From Gemmatimonadota bacterium (lineage in GTDB: Bacteria; Latescibacterota; UBA2968), in the NCBI GenBank assembly GCA_026706845.1, contig JAPOXY010000036.1:1-60132 (forward strand): a DNA stretch of 60,132 bases. The letters run 5' to 3'. Below the pieces are notes generated by a model. It saw only the letters and a list, made by a program, of their open reading frames with translations. It had not been told where the DNA came from and did not search any database. Both the position numbers and the translations under genes were made by a program. Of the stretch, positions 186 through 23,859 are shown one piece after another (position 1 is the first letter of the stretch; every line of letters starts with the position of its first letter).

Positions 186-1154
186 GTGAAAGCTATTCGC
201 ATATCGCAATACGGTGGTGCAGAAGTTTTGAGTTTTGAAGATATTGATGTAGCAGATCCAGACGAGGGACAGGTGCGGATTACCGTAGAAGCAGCGGGTG
301 TCAATTTTATCGATACCTATCACCGCACCGGCCTTTATCCTCTGAATTTGCCGTTGACGCTGGGACTGGAAGGCGCGGGCATTGTGAACGCGGTGGGTGC
401 GGGGGTTTCGGATTTGGCTGAGGGCGACCGCGTGGCATGGAAAAGTGTGGAGGGCTCTTATGCCGAGCAAGTTGTCGCAGACGCAGCCGAGGTGGTCAAA
501 ATTCCCTCAGATGTCGCTACTAAAACCGCAGCCGCGGTGATGTTGCAAGGGCTGACTTCGCATTATCTGGTCAATAGTACCTATCCGGTTCGAGAAGGCG
601 ATACCTGCCTTATCCACGCAGCCGCAGGAGGCGTTGGTCTTTTGCTCGTACAGATGGCAAAAATGCGCGGGGCGCGGGTTATTGGCACCACATCTACAGA
701 AGAAAAAGCGGCTCTGGCACGGGGCGCTGGTGCCGATGATATTATTCTTTATACCGAACGGGATTTTGAAGCCGAAGTTCTGCGCCTCACAGATGGGCAG
801 GGCGTCGAGGTGGTTTACGATTCTGTTGCCAAAGCCACCTGGGAGAAAAGCATCAATTGCCTCAAACCGCGCGGTTATATGGTCTTTTTTGGCAATGCCA
901 GTGGGCCGGTTCCGCCGATTGATCCTCTGCTTCTGTCGCAAAAAGGGTCTATTTATCTCACGCGCCCGACGCTCAATAGCTACACGCAGACCCGCGAAGA
1001 ATATCTCCAGCGTACCCGCGAGGTTATGGGTTGGGTTCAAGACGGCAGCCTGGATGTGCGTATTGGCGAAGCGCATCCTCTTGAGAATGCGGCCGAAGCA
1101 CATAATCGCCTCGAAGGTCGGCTGACTACGGGGAAAGTGCTGTTGATCCCATAA
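186..1154 (+). CDS. qor: Zinc-independent quinone oxidoreductase (NADPH), MDR superfamily
   Basis: A 322-residue medium-chain dehydrogenase/reductase that most likely reduces quinones with NADPH in the cytosol. An N-terminal GroES-like fold (to about residue 120) is followed by a Rossmann domain with AAAGGVG at residues 145-151, the usual cofactor loop of quinone reductases. No structural zinc cysteine cluster is visible, which fits the QOR branch. The GTG start at 186 was chosen because an AAAGGAGA ribosome site (173-180) lies just upstream and the family-typical sequence begins there; an upstream TTG at 132 only adds an unrelated stretch. The Nudix gene follows after 4 bases, so the two are probably co-transcribed. 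The true substrate could be another enone or quinone. Confidence 0.88.
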   Translation: MKAIRISQYGGAEVLSFEDIDVADPDEGQVRITVEAAGVNFIDTYHRTGLYPLNLPLTLGLEGAGIVNAVGAGVSDLAEGDRVAWKSVEGSYAEQVVADAAEVVKIPSDVATKTAAAVMLQGLTSHYLVNSTYPVREGDTCLIHAAAGGVGLLLVQMAKMRGARVIGTTSTEEKAALARGAGADDIILYTERDFEAEVLRLTDGQGVEVVYDSVAKATWEKSINCLKPRGYMVFFGNASGPVPPIDPLLLSQKGSIYLTRPTLNSYTQTREEYLQRTREVMGWVQDGSLDVRIGEAHPLENAAEAHNRLEGRLTTGKVLLIP

Positions 1155-4982: not shown

Positions 4983-6302
4983 CTATGTTTTGCGTTTTTC
5001 CTTTTTCGCCGCCGGGAAGAGAATATTGTTGAGTATGAGGCGATAGCCCGGCGAATTTTTGTGCAGTGCGAGTTGCGTGGGCGGGTCGTTGACAAAGTGT
5101 TGATAGTCTTCCGGGTCGTGTCCCGCATAAAATGTGAACGTGCCTTTGCCGATGTTGCCGTGGATGTATTTGACGTGGTCTGTGCCGGGTATGTCGCCCA
5201 TGATGGTGACGGATTTTTTGATGCGGTTTTTGCGAAAGGCCGTGGTCTGGCCCAAAAAGCCGGGGACGATGGGCGTGTGGTTTTGCGTGAGCATGGTGGG
5301 TACGGGATCGTATTTTGCCGAGAATTCAAATAGTGAAAAGGCGTCGATATCGGCATTTTTGACCTGGCTCATCTCAATGGGCGACAGGTCGATGTCGGCG
5401 TGTTCGTATTCGAGGGGGTCCATAACGAGGTTGAAGTTTTCAAAGGCTGCTGTGCGCGAGAAATCGAGTTTTTGACGCGCCTGTGGATCTGCGGGGTCGC
5501 CGTCGTAAACGCTATCGACGATGTCGATTCCGCGCGCTGCAAGGGCAATGTCAAAGGTATCGGTGGCAGAGCACATGGCAAAGAGAAATCCGCCCTGCGC
5601 GACGTAGTTGTAAATGGCCTGTGCAACCGCGCCTTTGAGATGGGCTACTTTGGCGAATCCCAATTTGCCAGCGAGAGCTTTGAATCCGGCCTGTTGTTGT
5701 CGGTACCAGAGGGTGTGGCCGTGGCTGCGATAAAATTTGCCGTATTGTCCTGTGAAGTCTTCGTGATGCAGGTGCAGCCAGTCGAAGTTTTCGAGTTTGC
5801 CGCTGAGGACTTCTTCGTCCCACAATGTGGTGTAGGGGATTTCCGCGTACGTGAGGGCCAGTGTGACGGCGTCGTCCCAGGGCTGTTTGTTCGGGGGGGT
5901 ATAGACGGCGATACGAGGAGCTTTTTCAAGGCGCATGCGGTTCATGTTGCCGGATTCAATGTCGGCGTAGATGCGCGTGGCCTGCGCGGCTGAGATGGCC
6001 TGAAAGGAGACGGCGCGGATGCGGGCTTCGCGCGCGATGGTTTCGTGGTGGTCGATGAGGAAGGATCCGCCGCGGTAGTTGAGCAACCATTCGACGGGAT
6101 GGCCCTGTTGCAATGCCCAATACGCAATGCCGTAGGCTTTGAGGTGATCTGTTTGCGATACGTCCATGGGGATGAGTATTTTGCCGATGTTCGCACTTCC
6201 ACCACCAATCGCCGCTGTGCAGGGAGAGGATGTTGCGAGGATGAGGAGCAGGATGAGAAGTGTGAAGTATGTGTGTCTTGCATTTTTTTGTTGTAATATC
6301 AT
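4983..6302 (-). CDS. Secreted protein of unknown function (amidotransferase-fold-like)
   Basis: A 439-residue exported protein with a signal peptide (hydrophobic core at residues 12-25, probable cleavage after CTAA). The mature part begins ILIPMDVSQTDHLKAYG, followed by alternating strand/helix segments and a glycine-rich turn (AQGGFLFAMCSATD) that recall the class I amidotransferase/ThuA/DUF4159 fold. Similar Bacteroidota-type proteins are, as far as I recall, sometimes labelled asparagine synthetase B; no synthetase ATP motif or N-terminal catalytic Cys is visible here, so that name is not used. It overlaps the TPR gene by ATGA and precedes the MoxR gene by 13 bases, so it is translationally tied to that cluster. 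Its enzymatic role, if any, is unknown. Confidence 0.7.
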   Translation of the reverse strand: MILQQKNARHTYFTLLILLLILATSSPCTAAIGGGSANIGKILIPMDVSQTDHLKAYGIAYWALQQGHPVEWLLNYRGGSFLIDHHETIAREARIRAVSFQAISAAQATRIYADIESGNMNRMRLEKAPRIAVYTPPNKQPWDDAVTLALTYAEIPYTTLWDEEVLSGKLENFDWLHLHHEDFTGQYGKFYRSHGHTLWYRQQQAGFKALAGKLGFAKVAHLKGAVAQAIYNYVAQGGFLFAMCSATDTFDIALAARGIDIVDSVYDGDPADPQARQKLDFSRTAAFENFNLVMDPLEYEHADIDLSPIEMSQVKNADIDAFSLFEFSAKYDPVPTMLTQNHTPIVPGFLGQTTAFRKNRIKKSVTIMGDIPGTDHVKYIHGNIGKGTFTFYAGHDPEDYQHFVNDPPTQLALHKNSPGYRLILNNILFPAAKKEKRKT

Positions 6303-18052: not shown

Positions 18053-18066
18053 GTTATCCGTTTCCT

Positions 18067-18456
18067 TCAATCGCCGCGAACAAAGCCCTGAGAAGCCTTC
18101 AGCAGAACGGCTGGTAACCGTTTCAGTTTTTCATTCCGAGGGTCAACCTCAAATCCACCGGATTCTAAAGCGGTAACGCCGAGCAATGGTTCCGCTCCTT
18201 CTTCTCCGTACACAATAGTCCCACCGACGATTTCTCCCTCGAATTCGATCTCGGCGATGGTTATATCCATGGCCACAGGATTTCCGTCTGCAAGTACGCA
18301 ATCGCGACTACCCCTCGGTTCAAGTCCAATCTCTTCAAGGCGCACCCTCGGCACGAGCGAGTCGAACGCGCCAGTATCGACCTGGAATTTGTCGGTCCAG
18401 CTACGTTGTCGATCTGAGGGATTGCGGATTGTTACGTCAACATAAACCGCGGACAT
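18067..18456 (-). CDS. Clan AA aspartic protease-like protein
   Basis: A 129-residue single-domain retropepsin-like protein. The catalytic motif is VDTGAFDSLVP with Asp27, and the second half has LLGVTALESGGFEVDPRNEKLKRLPA, which is the usual C-terminal part of this bacterial family. Such proteins would work as dimers. Target unknown. It sits between the CRISPR array and the 37-aa membrane protein on the same strand; an upstream GGAGAACCACC gives a plausible ribosome site. It is common near toxin-antitoxin genes in other genomes, but no partner is evident here. Confidence 0.78.
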   Translation of the reverse strand: MSAVYVDVTIRNPSDRQRSWTDKFQVDTGAFDSLVPRVRLEEIGLEPRGSRDCVLADGNPVAMDITIAEIEFEGEIVGGTIVYGEEGAEPLLGVTALESGGFEVDPRNEKLKRLPAVLLKASQGFVRGD

Positions 18457-18523
18457 GGTGGTTCTCCTATCGGGTTGGTTGCGAATAGATTCTATCTAAA
18501 GGTTTTGAGGGATGTATGCCTAC

Positions 18524-18795
18524 ATGCACTTTCCGCATTAGTGGGGGACATATTTCGTCATTCGCGATCATTTCCATCGTGATCGGGCCATCCCCACGTA
18601 TGTGGGGAATATACAGAGGTCTTCCAATAAAACAAGGACTGAAATGGTACATCCCCACATACGTGGGGAACATGAAGGTCGGATGAAAACAGGCTGGATA
18701 GAGGTTGGTTCATCCCCACCTGCGTGGGGAACATGCAACGATTTCAGCGGTTGGAACATCGAAGCCGGTTCATCCCCACCTGCGTGGGGAACATG
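18524..18795 (-). CRISPR. Short, decaying type I-E CRISPR array
   Basis: Four 29-base repeats at 18585-18613, 18646-18674, 18707-18735 and 18767-18795, with a fifth, strongly degenerate one at 18524-18552. On the plus strand the best copies read GGTTCATCCCCACCTGCGTG then GGGAACATG; on the minus strand this is the CCCCAC...GTGGGG hairpin repeat of type I-E. Spacers are 32, 32, 32 and 31 bases. Repeats lose identity steadily towards low coordinates, so that side is the trailer end and the leader side faces cas3. No leader is present: the last repeat touches truncated cas3 coding sequence. Confidence 0.92.
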
Positions 18796-20098
18796 GTAAG
18801 ATGCCTAATAATGCCTGATCAATTGTACCGACGCCAACAGCAGCTAATAATGCTTTCTTGAGATTATCTGATAGCCAGGCACTACAATGTACACTTGCAG
18901 GTATTGTCTCATCGCCATAATTTTCTTCAGGGTTTTTGGACTCAGGTACAACTGCCTGACGAAAAGATTGGGAAAGATTGCGTGCGCTGTGTGCCAGAAC
19001 AATAGAAGGTTGCGTGTTTTGTGGAAAAAGGCGTTGATACACTGGCTGTTTATCATCACCTTTCATACGCTCAAACATGGCGTTTGCAGTCGCCATTGTT
19101 GGCAAGGCAATATACAGGCCAGCCCCCTTTTGATGTGCCATTAACCGGTTTGCTAACAACACAGCCGCTTCAGTTTTTCCTGCACCTGTTACATCTTCGA
19201 GGATATAAAGGCAAGGCCCTTTGCCAATCGTCAATTCTCCACATTTTGACTGCAACGGTGTTGGAATTTTAATATCCGGCGCAAACAAATCCTGCAAATT
19301 GTGCTCTTGAACAGGCGTATCTATTAGCAATTCTGTAAGATCCGTTGCTTTCTCTGCCTGCTTCAATGCCAATTGCCAATATTCATCCAACGGCATTGAT
19401 ACATCACAATAAGAAAAGAAATCAGCATTTGACCCAATCCAGTCACACAGAACTGCAACCCCAGCCAGCCACCAAGAGGCCATTCGCAACTTGGAGCGGT
19501 CTATTTCTGGTAAGGTCATAACGTCTTCAAACAACAGATCAATAACTGCCTGGATATAGCTTTTTGTTGATATGATGTCTTCATCAGCAAAATAATCTGA
19601 TAAAATTTGTTGCCCTTCTTTGGGAGGTTGCCCGTGATGTCCGGCTATGGCACGCATCCAATAGTCGTATCCCGTCTCTCGAACACGACGACCAGACGTG
19701 CTGGTTTTCGGCAGAAAATTTATTTTTTGGAAATATGTTCGGATACAATCTTTCCAGAGAATATACCCCAGTGTGTCATGAGGTAGATTATAGCCCTTGT
19801 TGCTTTCCCGATTTTGCAGTTTTTTTAATAAATCAGGACGCAAATTCTGGAAACCTTCTGCGAATTTGCCAACATCATGTAGTGCTAAAAAGAAGGTCAT
19901 GTATTGAACTAAGTGATTTTCGTCCAAGTCCGTCAGATATGCTAATGTGGTTCTTATTCGCTCATTTTTTTTTAAAAATATTTGTCCCACAGCAGCGACG
20001 TCTAAGCAATGGTATGGCAAAATATGTACTGTCATCTTCTCAGCCCCATATCCAGCTTTGCCCCAATACTTCCTGTGGTTATCTGTCCTCTGTTGCAT
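18770..20098 (-). pseudogene. cas3: Truncated cas3 (HD nuclease plus partial helicase), type I-E
   Basis: A 442-codon remnant of the CRISPR effector nuclease-helicase. The HD nuclease part is present (H74, D75 in LALHDVGKF; AGHHGQPP) and the helicase Walker A VTGAGKTEAA with IALPTMATANAMFERM. The frame then reads VGTIDQALLGILP and passes directly into the CRISPR repeat, ending at a TGA inside it. Normal Cas3 is about 850-900 residues; the DEAD-box motif II, the second RecA domain and the C-terminal domain are gone, as are all cascade genes, cas1 and cas2. The ATG at 20098 follows GAGGAAATT; the longer upstream frame is unlikely. Nuclease activity on its own might survive, but interference cannot. 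Confidence 0.9.
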
Positions 20099-20261
20099 AA
20101 TTTCCTCAGATTTAAATTTGATCTTGTCAAAATTTCGAATTGAATGAATTTTTGAGCGGCTAAATGTAGTGAAATTTTGTTCACTATGCAAGATTAACTT
20201 GCACCTATGATGCGGCTTTTCTATTTTCTGCATCCCAGAGGAACTGTCAGGAGAGTAAGTG

Positions 20262-20441
20262 ATGAACCACGACCATATCATAAAGGAAGTTCGAACGATT
20301 CGCGAACAACTGGCGGCATCACATGGCTATAATGTGCGTGCCCTGTTTGCGGCAGCAAAAAAACGCCAGCAAGAAAGTGGGCGAAAGGTCGTTAAATTGA
20401 CACCCAGGCGGTTAAAAATTGCAGATGAAAAAGCGGTATAA
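20262..20441 (+). CDS. Small antitoxin-like protein, 59 aa
   Basis: A 59-residue protein beginning MNHDHIIKEVRTIREQLAASHGYNVRALF and ending in a basic, proline-containing tail (VVKLTPRRLK). This pattern (EVR.IRE.LA...GYD...IF) is common in small proteins found beside toxin genes, so an antitoxin role is inferred. AGGAG at 20249-20253 supports either ATG 20262 or the GTG one codon upstream. No intact toxin follows directly; an overlapping ATG at 20425 opens a frame whose first part has no recognisable family. Confidence 0.6.
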   Translation: MNHDHIIKEVRTIREQLAASHGYNVRALFAAAKKRQQESGRKVVKLTPRRLKIADEKAV

Positions 20442-20679
20442 CCAATACGACTATACGCGACCTCAGTCTGCAAATCCGCTGGATATGATTTCTCTCATTC
20501 AAGTCCTTATTAAAAGGTCTGATTCCAGGATAATTTCTTTCCAAAAAAGTTGCTTTTCGTTCCGAAGTTGGCTATATCTTATTCGGCGACCAGAATGGGC
20601 CGGTGTCAACCGACTCAGGACAATGTCCCTGGCCGCTACTTTTTTGATCTCCTGCTCACACCCCTTTAAGGAGTTACTC
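20442..20679. other. Unassigned gap between antitoxin-like gene and TA pair
   Basis: A 238-base stretch with no convincing gene. A frame overlapping the end of the antitoxin-like gene (ATG 20425) continues through it into the next antitoxin but resembles nothing known. A second frame contains VAFRSEVGYILFGDQNGP before a stop near 20633. It may hold the remains of the toxin partner of the upstream gene. Confidence 0.3.
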
Positions 20680-20880
20680 ATGCTTAGCACTGCTTTGGGT
20701 ATTGTGAAAGACGGAAAAATCGAAACGTTAGAAAGCATTACATTGCCTGAGGGGCAAAAGGTATTGGTCACTATGTTGCCCGACGATAATATTTTTTGGC
20801 AAGAAGCCAGCCAGGAAACCCTGAAACAGATTTGGGATAATAAAAAGGACGATGTATATGCCCGATTACTTGATGAATGA
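20680..20880 (+). CDS. Antitoxin of PemK/MazF-type pair
   Basis: A 66-residue protein with the DUF104/AF2212-like or AbrB-like short-strand pattern GIVKDGKIETLESITLPEGQKVLV, followed by a C-terminal helix likely to bind the toxin. Start ATG 20680 has AAGGAG at 20668-20673, six bases upstream; a longer frame upstream lacks this. The reading frame overlaps the toxin start by 23 bases, the usual tight coupling of such pairs. It probably binds its own promoter and neutralises the toxin. Confidence 0.75.
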   Translation: MLSTALGIVKDGKIETLESITLPEGQKVLVTMLPDDNIFWQEASQETLKQIWDNKKDDVYARLLDE

Positions 20881-21190
20881 TATTGTACTTGTTCGATATC
20901 CCTTTTCTGATTTGCGTGTGTTCAAAGTGCGTCCAGCTATTATTGTGAGTGCGCCACATGTTTCTCAAGATGTCTTTATTGTCCCTCTTACCAGCCAAAT
21001 AACGAATCTTTTGCCGGGCGAGTTTGTGCTGGAGAATTGGAAGCAATCAGGACTCAATGTTGCGTCTGCTGTTAAACGAGGCATATATACCATTCATCAG
21101 AACTTGATTCTCAAGAAAGTGGGACATCTCGCACAGAAAGATCTAACGACATTGATTGTATCTTTGCGAAGTTGGCTGAATCTCACATAG
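20858..21190 (+). CDS. Type II toxin, PemK/MazF family
   Basis: A 110-residue endoribonuclease-like toxin. The SH3-like barrel signature is clear: DIVLVRYPFSD then VRPAIIVS, then FIVPLTSQ, and the C-terminal helix LTTLIVSLRSWL. In the family it cleaves mRNA. ATG 20858 is preferred over ATG 20852. It overlaps its antitoxin gene and its stop overlaps the convergent WYL regulator by 8 bases. All expected core motifs are present, so it looks intact, unlike the CRISPR and HEPN systems nearby. Confidence 0.85.
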   Translation: MPDYLMNDIVLVRYPFSDLRVFKVRPAIIVSAPHVSQDVFIVPLTSQITNLLPGEFVLENWKQSGLNVASAVKRGIYTIHQNLILKKVGHLAQKDLTTLIVSLRSWLNLT

Positions 21191-22154
21191 ATTTCGTTTC
21201 ATACATCCTTCCTGCCGCGATCATATCCTTTGCGATGACCTGTCGCAATTCCTCTGGTTCTATCACTTCGCAATCTGCGCCCCAGCCTCTGATCCACGGT
21301 TTCATCTCCAGCGTGTGGCTCACGGTTAAAGTCATGAGGCAGCCACCGTCTGGCTGGTTGTCAATGGCATCGACACAGGGCCAATCCGATTCCCGCACGC
21401 GGTATGCCACATTGGGCGAGAAGCGGAGTTTGACGACGATGCGCTCATCGCCGCCCATGACGCCCCATGCTTGTGTCAGATAATCGTAGGGATCGAAATT
21501 GTCCCTAATCTGATATGACGAATCGAGAATTTTGACCTGTTGCACGCGCTCGATTTTGAACTCTCGGATGTCGCGGCGCAAATGGTCATACCCGATCACA
21601 TAACAGGCATATCCCACAGGGGACGGCTCGATGAAGTATGGGTCAAAGACGCGCCTGGTGGTTTCATCGGTGTATGGATTGTAATACGTCAAACGCACCT
21701 GTTTGCGTTCAGACCACGCGCGGGTAAAGGTCTCCAGAATGCGGATGTACTCGCGATGCGGTCTGCGCTTGTGCGTGGCTTCGGCGGTTCGGGCGATGTG
21801 TTGACCGATTGATTCGGGAAGTGCGCTGGCGAGTTTTTCAAGTGCAGAGACGACATGCGGATTGTGTTTGTCGCTGTGCGCTGCGAGCAATCGGGCCGAG
21901 AGATACAGTGCGAGGGACTCGTGCAGATTCACGCGTACAGATGTGATATAGCGGTCTTTCACAACGCCAAAATGGTGATTTTCTTCCCAAATCGGCACGC
22001 CAGATCGCTCAAGAGAACGCAAGTCGCGATAAGCAGTGGTGCGGTGATACCCAAAGCGTTCGGCAATTTCACGAGCAGTTAGCCCTCGGGAAGATTGAAA
22101 AAGCAAATTTTCCAGCATTTTGAGTCGTTCTGCGCGGGTTTCGTCGCGGTCCAT
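21183..22154 (-). CDS. WYL-domain transcriptional regulator (YafY type)
   Basis: A 323-residue regulator: N-terminal helix-turn-helix (RAERLKMLENLLFQSSRGLTAREIAERFGYHRTTAYRDLRSLE), a linker, the WYL domain (VRLTYYNPYTDETTRRVFDPYFIE, CYVIGYDHLRRDIREFKIERV) and the WCX C-terminal domain. WYL proteins bind nucleic-acid ligands and often control CRISPR-Cas or DNA-damage genes; its position 1 kb from a type I-E remnant makes a former role in controlling that locus plausible. The start ATG 22154 has a perfect AGGAGG 7 bases upstream. The longer frame reaching 22244 is not needed. Confidence 0.9.
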   Translation of the reverse strand: MDRDETRAERLKMLENLLFQSSRGLTAREIAERFGYHRTTAYRDLRSLERSGVPIWEENHHFGVVKDRYITSVRVNLHESLALYLSARLLAAHSDKHNPHVVSALEKLASALPESIGQHIARTAEATHKRRPHREYIRILETFTRAWSERKQVRLTYYNPYTDETTRRVFDPYFIEPSPVGYACYVIGYDHLRRDIREFKIERVQQVKILDSSYQIRDNFDPYDYLTQAWGVMGGDERIVVKLRFSPNVAYRVRESDWPCVDAIDNQPDGGCLMTLTVSHTLEMKPWIRGWGADCEVIEPEELRQVIAKDMIAAGRMYETKSM

Positions 22155-22431
22155 AAAACCTCCTGTGTGACAATATAAGACATGGGTGTTGCGACTTTCG
22201 CTACACATGATAAAAAAATCGTGGGATGGGATAAACGGAATCAAAATAGGGCGCGTTGTGGGTGGGATTTTAGAGAGGGTAAGTTATGGGAGGATAGTGT
22301 ATTGATTGACAAATTCAGCAGGAGACAAAATGGGAATATTTTGGTATGAATCCAAATCAACGAGATGAAGGTATAGACAAAATGAGAGCCAGGAGAGCGT
22401 GGTTATTCCACCGACTTTAAATCGCATTAGA
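22155..22431. other. Intergenic stretch upstream of the WYL gene
   Basis: 277 bases without a recognisable gene. A 12-codon frame (ATG near 22330 behind AGGAG) is too short to support. AT-rich segments with a TTGACA-like box occur but no matching -10 at correct spacing was found. Confidence 0.4.
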
Positions 22432-22713
22432 TCAATTTGAGGTGGTTAGAGAGCGATGGGTCATACCTACGATTTCACCGGTGTGGTCATTGATTTCAAC
22501 GACTTTGAACGAACGGTTCTTCCAGTCTTGTCCCCCGAGGTTGGCTGCCAGGCTCCTCCGTTCCCATGGACGAGAGAACCCTATGGTTATTTTCCAGGCA
22601 TTTGCTGTTTCGTCGAATACCACCTCTTCAAGTCCTAAGTCCTGAACTTCCTCGTCGGCAAATAGTTCGGTTATGTATTTGTTCGCCGTCCGTACGGCTT
22701 CTTTTACGTTCAT
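22432..22713 (-). CDS. Conserved hypothetical protein, 93 aa
   Basis: A 93-residue soluble protein: MNVKEAVRTANKYITELFADEEVQDLGLEEVVFDE, then WKITIGFSRPW, then FKVVEINDHTGEIVGMTHR. A helix followed by a PepSY-like beta sheet is suggested. Similar small proteins occur in cyanobacteria and other phyla next to toxin-like genes, but no function is known. GGAGG 6-7 bases before the ATG supports the start. It lies 31 bases downstream of the HEPN remnant on the same strand and could be part of that transcript. Confidence 0.7.
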   Translation of the reverse strand: MNVKEAVRTANKYITELFADEEVQDLGLEEVVFDETANAWKITIGFSRPWERRSLAANLGGQDWKNRSFKVVEINDHTGEIVGMTHRSLTTSN

Positions 22714-22744
22714 TTATGCCTCCATTTCTGCGATCTTATTATTT

Positions 22745-23151
22745 TTATTTTTTCATACGCAATTTTACGCCACATTCTTGCAAATAGGTTCTTATTCTTG
22801 CTATAAATTTTTCTGCATTTTCTATTAAATCGTCCGCGGCCTCTTTAGAAATGGGTATCTGAATACTGTAATCCGCAACAATCCGTTGATCCTGTTCTTG
22901 TGAAAGAATGCGTGCCCACTCCTTTTCAATATGACCGGGGTTGACCAGTATTTTCCCAAAGAGCCGGCGTAATGCAGCATGAGATTCTGCAAGGGTGTTG
23001 TGATAGAACAAAGCCGCTTTTGCTGCATGCATCACAGCGTAATAACCTCGTGAGACAGCGTCTTCGTAGAGATCTTCTTTCATTAGTATCTGAGCTGCCT
23101 GAAGGGATTTTAGGCCGCGTTAAATTCTGAAACAATGTTTTCTTGGTTCAT
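22745..23151 (-). pseudogene. HEPN-domain toxin (HepT-like), frameshifted near the N terminus
   Basis: The open part (ATG 23083 to 22745, 112 codons) has the HEPN core EDAVSRGYYAVMHAAKAALF with the R...H active-site pair. The true start is ATG 23151, whose ATGA overlaps the stop of the nucleotidyltransferase gene. From it the frame reads MNQENIVSEFN and hits a stop after 13 codons; one added base near 23115 would join it to RGLKSLQAAQIL and the open part, giving the usual full-length HEPN. So one base has been lost, or the sequence has an error. A shortened protein from ATG 23083 would lack the first helix. Confidence 0.8.
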
Positions 23152-23495
23152 AAAACAGGTATTCCATCCCGCGTAACGGTTTGCCAGAAGGGGGCTTCAT
23201 AGTCCTGGTGGTATATCCATTCCTCAGCAGTAAGTACGATAAGTGAGGGCACAACTTCGGTGCCAATCGCGAGCGTGTATCCGGGTTCAGCAACCGACTT
23301 CTTCGTTTTCCAATCTCCCTCGTGGATGACAACGAGAACATCCAGATCAGAGTCCTCATCGGATGATCCACGCGCTTTGGATCCAAAGATAATGAGATCT
23401 TTGATAAGATTCGCAAATTGTGCTTCCAGAGCTTTCTGGTAAGCTTCAAGCCAAATGCGTTCTTCGCGCGTCAATGTCAAAGTTTCTAAGGCCAT
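23148..23495 (-). CDS. MNT-type minimal nucleotidyltransferase (antitoxin)
   Basis: A 115-residue nucleotidyltransferase of the polymerase beta superfamily with the motif FGSKARGSSDEDSDLDVLVV, keeping the GS and both aspartates. In MntA/HepT (type VII) toxin-antitoxin systems such a protein AMPylates and silences the HEPN RNase. The stop overlaps the original start of the HEPN gene (ATGA), as expected for this pair. This half is intact although the HEPN partner is frameshifted. Confidence 0.85.
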   Translation of the reverse strand: MALETLTLTREERIWLEAYQKALEAQFANLIKDLIIFGSKARGSSDEDSDLDVLVVIHEGDWKTKKSVAEPGYTLAIGTEVVPSLIVLTAEEWIYHQDYEAPFWQTVTRDGIPVL

Positions 23496-23603
23496 AATTC
23501 TGAAAAATTGAGAGGTTTTGGTACAGTCTGCCTACCTAGAGAGTAACCAATTTATACTTATAAGAAAAGCATTTCCGAGTGCGAAAAGGGTCAAAATAGG
23601 GAA

Positions 23604-23697
23604 AGTTGGACGGGGTCTTGTTGTGTGTCGGGTTGTGGGGGGGATTGTCTGGCGGGTCTGTCATGGGGATAGCACACGGCCTTGAAGGGGCAGGTGG
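23604..23697 (-). pseudogene. Remnant: 3' end of a RecB/Cas4-like nuclease gene
   Basis: 94 bases that align without gaps to 25270-25363, the end of the intact nuclease gene, with about 80 identical positions by eye. On the minus strand it still reads CPFKAVCYPHDRPARQSP and ends near QQDPVQLS. At its high-coordinate end it passes into the AsmA-like tail through GGGCAGGTGG, a sequence both parents nearly share. Confidence 0.75.
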
Positions 23698-23816
23698 ATT
23701 ATGTGCGGGATATGCCCATTCAATTTGCTGGATTTCATCTGGGCAGAACCATTCCCATACGCATAAAAATTGGCGGCGCGGCAAGCGCGCCAGAGGTGTC
23801 GGTGGAATTAAAATAG
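23688..23816 (+). pseudogene. Remnant: C-terminal tail of an AsmA-like gene
   Basis: 42 codons plus TAG reading GQVDYVRDMPIQFAGFH, then LGRTIPIRIKIGGAASAPEV and SVELK. This matches the last codons of the intact gene at 16978-17931 with two in-frame deletions (two codons and one codon) and many silent changes, so it probably came from a diverged paralogue rather than a recent local copy. Confidence 0.8.
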
Positions 23817-23818
23817 GC

Positions 23819-23845
23819 TTAAAGGGCCAGTAGAAGGATAATGAA
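23819..23845 (-). pseudogene. Remnant: 3' end of the small membrane protein gene
   Basis: On the minus strand it reads FIILLLAL and stop, matching IVIVIVLAL and stop of the 37-aa protein at 17939. It converges on the AsmA remnant with a 2-base gap, copying the arrangement at 17931/17939. Confidence 0.6.
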
Positions 23846-23859
23846 CCTCCGCGTGGTTT

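Follow-up and report, generated by a model that had tools for sequence, protein, structure and literature searches.

A probable recent loss of a type I-E CRISPR-Cas locus in Candidatus Latescibacterota leaves cas3 joined to the exact edge of a CRISPR repeat

How does a cas3 gene come to stop at the very base where a CRISPR repeat begins? This question is raised by the window, that is, the whole stretch of DNA analysed, which is the entire contig C36 (60,132 bases) of an assembly of 279 contigs that is 95.7% complete. On the minus strand, cas3 (...GGTACAATTGATCAGGCATTATTAGGCATCTTACC) ends at position 18795, and the repeat ATGTTCCCCACGCAGGTGGGGATGAACCG (18794-18766) is directly next to it, followed by spacer 1. 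Direct reading of the sequence found no leader, spacer or cas gene between the cas3 stub and repeat 1, which agrees with the preliminary description that cas3 is cut exactly at a repeat with nothing in between. The span given there, 18767-18845, does cover the join region, but it takes in the repeat together with 51 bases from the end of cas3; the repeat itself is 29 nt long, with its 5′ edge at 18794. The reading frame of the stub is stop-free through to ...VGTIDQALLGIL; it reads ...VGTIDQALLGILP and then CSPRRWG*, with the stop falling inside the repeat. A mechanically called ORF of 503 aa (18770..20281, minus strand) encloses the stub and likewise takes its stop codon from the CRISPR repeat. 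At the join (18794..18795, minus strand), the window reads cas3 ...CATCTTACC / ATGTTCCCC..., the second part being repeat, where the intact relative has CATCTTACC / TTCCCGCCATC. The cas3 gene of this sister species continues as CATCTTACC / TTCCCGCC, whereas the window has CATCTTACC / ATGTTCCCC instead. The last proline codon, CCT in the intact relative, is CCA in the window, its third base being already the A of the repeat.

The stub (18795..20098, minus strand) comprises 434 intact, stop-free codons, and was identified by profile, PDB and relative comparisons as the 5′ part of a type I-E cas3 gene, encoding the HD nuclease domain and the beginning of helicase domain 1. Its start codon at 20098 was placed by comparison with the relative, and its other bound is the deletion join. 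The HMM matches covered positions 5-428 of 878 only of NF007248, the whole of cas3_HD, and positions 4-111 of 358 of cas3_core, while PADLOC typed the stub as Cas3e (7e-90). It aligned with residues 39-462 of 949 of PDB entry 4q2c, and both the HMM and PDB comparisons showed that the stub protein terminates shortly past the VGTIDQAL motif. The protein is 91% identical to the 929 aa Cas3 of a complete I-E locus (G002/L018), and the DNA is 90.6% identical as far as the join, with dS of 0.34, dN/dS of 0.13 and even lower close to the join, and no stops. This identity, the open frame and the low dN/dS suggest that cas3 was functional until recently. The undecayed state of the stub indicates that the loss was recent, or else that the join is an assembly artefact. 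A naturally short cas3, which had been named as a finding that would speak against a cut gene, was ruled out, since the intact, well-aligned relatives found in the same family have open frames of 852-977 codons.

The relative with the complete locus is a congeneric sister species (G002, JAJDYX010000008.1, contig G002:C41, locus L018; Candidatus Latescibacterota). It shares the locus, the repeat, the flanks and the cas3 gene with the window, and its collinear order is WYL, cas3 (929 aa), cas8e, cse2, cas7, cas5, cas6, cas1, cas2, leader and array. The Cascade, cas1 and cas2 genes exceeded the NCBIfam cut-offs for type I-E, and cas3 exceeded those of cas3_core and cas3_HD. The leader is about 80 bases long and ends in AGT; behind it stands an array with the same 29-nt repeat. 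This array is split: C41 ends within it, and a second contig, C16, begins inside such an array, carries about 23 more repeats, and then runs into an aspartyl-protease-like gene, as in the window. The sister array comprises 40 repeats or more. In the window, the aspartyl-protease-like gene (18067..18456, minus strand) forms the trailing flank and is also partly present in another congener, G009; the leading flank is a WYL/HTH regulator (21183..22244, minus strand), which adjoins cas3 in the sister species. From these arrangements we infer that the ancestral order was WYL - cas3 - Cascade - cas1 - cas2 - leader - array - protease, read across one contig break. Further genes were seen beside this order. 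Between the WYL regulator and cas3, the window carries a PemK/MazF-like toxin gene (20852-21190) and a small upstream ORF (20677-20880); this insertion (20677-21190) does not lie at this place in the sister species, and about 91% identical DNA occurs elsewhere in the locus of G003. In the sister species, a gene that by eye looks like TnpB (IS200/IS605) separates the old end of the array from the aspartyl-protease-like gene (L063:1780-2950, minus strand).

Comparison with this relative, as the preliminary description had anticipated, shows which bases went. Whereas the sister locus is complete, the window has no cas3 3′ half, cas8e, cse2, cas7, cas5, cas6, cas1, cas2, leader or newer spacers, so that at least 7.4 kb of the sister locus, from cas3 codon 435 to the end of the leader, is without a counterpart. 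An unfixed number of leader-side spacers was probably lost as well. The absence of the second helicase domain, Cascade, cas1 and cas2, which had already been pointed out, holds for the contig, and these genes were also undetected in the rest of the assembly. The sister's 7.4 kb, including the cas2 DNA, gave no match in the window's whole assembly, while the same kind of search did detect orthologues at 85-90% identity. Cas1 (PF01867) was absent from the window's genome, with a positive control. We found no displaced cas fragment and no misplaced rest of the operon elsewhere in the assembly, and no second CRISPR with the same repeat type was found in the genome. Because Cascade, Cas6, Cas1, Cas2, the leader and the second helicase lobe are gone, the remnant should be non-functional in adaptation, crRNA processing and interference alike, judging by the established requirements of type I-E systems.

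What remains of the array are four repeats and three spacers, all on the minus strand, with a repeat unit of 29 nt and a spacing of 61, 61 and 60 nt. This agrees with the I-E pattern, in which hairpin repeats of 28-29 nt and spacers of 32-33 nt are expected. Together with an I-E family Cas3 and both flanks in common with the sister species, these sizes identify the structure as the remnant of a type I-E locus. Repeat 1 (18766..18794) is identical to the repeat of the sister species; it is followed by spacer 1 (18735..18765, 31 nt, beginning GCTTCGATGTTCCAACC), repeat 2 (18706..18734), spacer 2 (18674..18705, 32 nt), the diverged repeat 3 (18645..18673), spacer 3 (18613..18644, 32 nt), which is the oldest, and the terminal, also diverged repeat 4 (18584..18612). 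Spacers 1 and 2 had no exact match among viral contigs, leaving a phage origin unsupported, and genus-wide they had no match outside arrays that would point to self-targeting. Rfam gave nothing at the locus. Spacer 3 is shared with G009 at 97%, and resembles a CRISPR repeat of other congeners: the comparison of 18613-18644 (minus strand) with L069:660-692, L064, L065, L067, L071 and L073 showed that it matches (87-93%) the repeat of about 37 nt at the same locus in G003, G004, G005 and G007. This rival array is of type I-B, as typed by the cas genes in G007, and a copy of a rival's repeat, carried as an I-E spacer, would target each unit in the rival array. In G009 (L069 about 660-781, minus strand, compared with L067:1290-1360 and L073 about 5030-5065), the end of the type I-B array is copied piecewise: two adjacent I-E spacers hold adjacent pieces of it, in the same order; the copied pieces overlap by about 4 bases (TTTC), and one I-E repeat stands between the two spacers. 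This pair could reflect two adjacent acquisitions or something stranger.

The interval between the flanks (window 18057-23847) is a hot spot of CRISPR and defence genes. In G001, which has no CRISPR at the locus, the sequences that correspond to window positions 18056 and 23848 meet within 24 nt (L068:4826-4850). Other congeners hold type I-B, I-E, MazF/PemK-like or HEPN/nucleotidyltransferase genes in this interval, with type I-B systems in several of them and another I-E operon in G009. The latter (L069, G009:C406) combines this different I-E operon and a different repeat type, AATCTCCCCACAAGCGTGGGGATGTACCG, with an old array end whose repeats are of the window's type; it is most readily read as an inherited array end onto which another cas operon was swapped. 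Across 64 genomes of the phylum, the only other truncated cas3-to-repeat arrangement was found in G044 (C60:28002-31388), a member of the same class. Like the window, it shows broken cas3 fragments and then a short I-E-like array, with no Cascade seen between them. Unlike in the window, its cas3 is decayed by internal loss and stops, and hundreds of bases separate it from the repeats, without an exact edge. G044 is thus a second, independent I-E wreck, from which it is seen that losses of this kind recur also where no repeat edge is hit exactly.

Because the locus turns over quickly and I-E loss has recurred in G044, we favour an ordinary illegitimate deletion, which would have wrecked a complete type I-E locus in one recent event, with a probability of about 60%. 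Everything from the 3′ half of cas3 through all Cascade genes, cas1, cas2 and the leader to the newer spacers on the leader side would have gone in a single deletion, leaving cas3 fused to a repeat's 5′ edge close to the old (trailer) end of the array. The route may have been end-joining or slippage, with the far end coming to lie by chance on, or a few bases from, the repeat edge. What counts against random endpoints is the exactness of the join. In 400,000 simulated random joins between the sister cas3 and the sister array, the cas3 homology ended exactly at a repeat 5′ edge in 1.5% of cases, given a deletion from cas3 into the array; the value rose to 2.8% with micro-homology sliding, i.e., when any placement within the ambiguous bases was allowed to fall on the edge. 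The earlier argument that a random deletion would leave part of a spacer is weaker than it was put, being worth only 1.5-3%. Moreover, the bases before the repeat end in C, CC and ACC in 5/39, 2/39 and 1/39 of the sampled sister cases, and if the lost spacer ended in one of these ways, the true cut lies inside a spacer. We also saw no micro-homology able to guide a join at its exact spot, although microhomology had been put forward as one cause: the nearest word common to cas3 and the repeat, TTCCC, was rejected as a guide because it would have deleted the ATG of the repeat. A join at the leader-repeat border that kept leader bases was rejected as well, since the sister leader ends in ...GAGAAGT and the window has ...CTTACC. 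The exact edge is therefore unusual, not extreme; it is suggestive, not decisive, so that it fails to establish a Cas1-Cas2 or self-spacer mechanism, and the neat repeat edge could be chance.

Could the join instead be a footprint that the CRISPR adaptation machinery left on its own locus, either by recombination of cas3 with a self-derived spacer or by direct Cas1-Cas2 joining? We consider this unlikely; if it were true, the locus would have deleted itself with single-base precision at the repeat edge. In the first form, which is the chief rival among those that account for a precise edge, a cas3-derived spacer ending ...GGCATCTTACC would have recombined with cas3, and homologous recombination between cas3 and the 32-nt copy in direct orientation would have looped out the intervening DNA. 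Such a route predicts the exact repeat edge, and its geometry fits, as cas3 and the array read the same way; the loss of the cas genes would also have ended autoimmunity. The I-E arrays of the genus do carry copies of CRISPR loci (spacer 3 of the window, and the neighbouring spacer of G009 that copies the type I-B array end). Recombination between spacers and their targets has been reported for phages (Watson 2018 and Varble 2019, as cited in PMC8616872), and the deletion of the cas cassette in Lactobacillus acidophilus NCFM has been ascribed to self-targeting (PMC6990116). However, the route expects a pre-deletion spacer ending ...TTAGGCATCTTACC right before repeat 1, and we consider it doubtful: a cas3-derived spacer was found neither in the window's array nor in the arrays of relatives, and the C16 part of the sister array, when queried against the genus, contained no self-targeting spacer, only array matches. 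Spacers from the own cas operon should also be rare, and the GGT before the 32-nt stretch is a non-canonical I-E PAM, though a PAM-less spacer would be better tolerated.

In half-site integration, Cas1-Cas2 attaches a DNA 3′ end precisely at a repeat's 5′ edge, and Cas1-Cas2 acts at the leader-side repeat. Applied to this locus, a chromosome end broken in cas3 would have been integrated onto the repeat edge, deleting the stretch between. The exact edge would fit a Cas1-Cas2-type cut, and the relative's locus has intact cas1e and cas2e; yet the join does not lie at the leader-repeat border, where such a cut had been suggested. The three spacers left are old ones, the last being the oldest, as against 40 or more repeats in the sister array. 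The event would thus have struck either a repeat inside the array or an array of very small size to begin with. Cas1-Cas2 prefers the leader-proximal repeat, so the survival of only the oldest spacers makes such joining less likely; in addition, prespacers of about 33 nt are used, not chromosome arms, and nothing here sets this route apart from the others. We regard it as highly improbable. An assembly artefact, in which the cas3 end was wired to an array path, e.g., because some cells of the population carried a spacer taken from cas3, while the true locus is intact, would explain the undecayed stub. It finds some footing in the metagenome assembly of 279 contigs and in the fact that arrays break assemblies, as the sister array, which lies on two contigs, illustrates. 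Against it, the missing 7.4 kb and Cas1 occur nowhere in a 95.7% complete assembly, cas3 and the repeat have no common sequence at the join that could mislead a de Bruijn graph, and the contig follows the expected gene order on either side; we hold it to be rather unlikely.

An ordinary deletion of this kind has known counterparts, as the loss of cas genes together with part of an array has been described in Mycobacterium tuberculosis (PMC7708916) and in L. acidophilus NCFM (PMC6990116). In M. tuberculosis, some cas genes are missing from 12% of isolates through deletions on the cas side of the array (PMC7708916). As in the window, cas genes and adjacent spacers of the DR locus were deleted, but that system is of type III-A and its array deletions were ascribed chiefly to IS6110 or to repeat-repeat recombination (PMC7708916); no IS was found at the window's join. 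L. acidophilus NCFM similarly retains an orphan array after cas loss, but its whole cassette is gone and six self-targeting spacers survive, whereas none was seen in the window (PMC6990116). For a cas-to-repeat deletion join exact to the base, we found no precedent in the literature searched, the coverage of which was incomplete.

We rate the locus as a genuine CRISPR loss of an ordinary kind, whose edge deserves attention. CRISPR-Cas loss is common and is mostly recorded as presence or absence, while base-resolved joins are rarer. The value of this single case lies mainly in the good documentation of a recent loss in a little-studied phylum, Candidatus Latescibacterota. An excess of joins at repeat edges would be measurable across genome collections with the same simple null model, and if cas-to-repeat joins fell at edges more often than the 1.5-3% expected, this would suggest self-acquisition from the own cas genes as a route of self-destruction.
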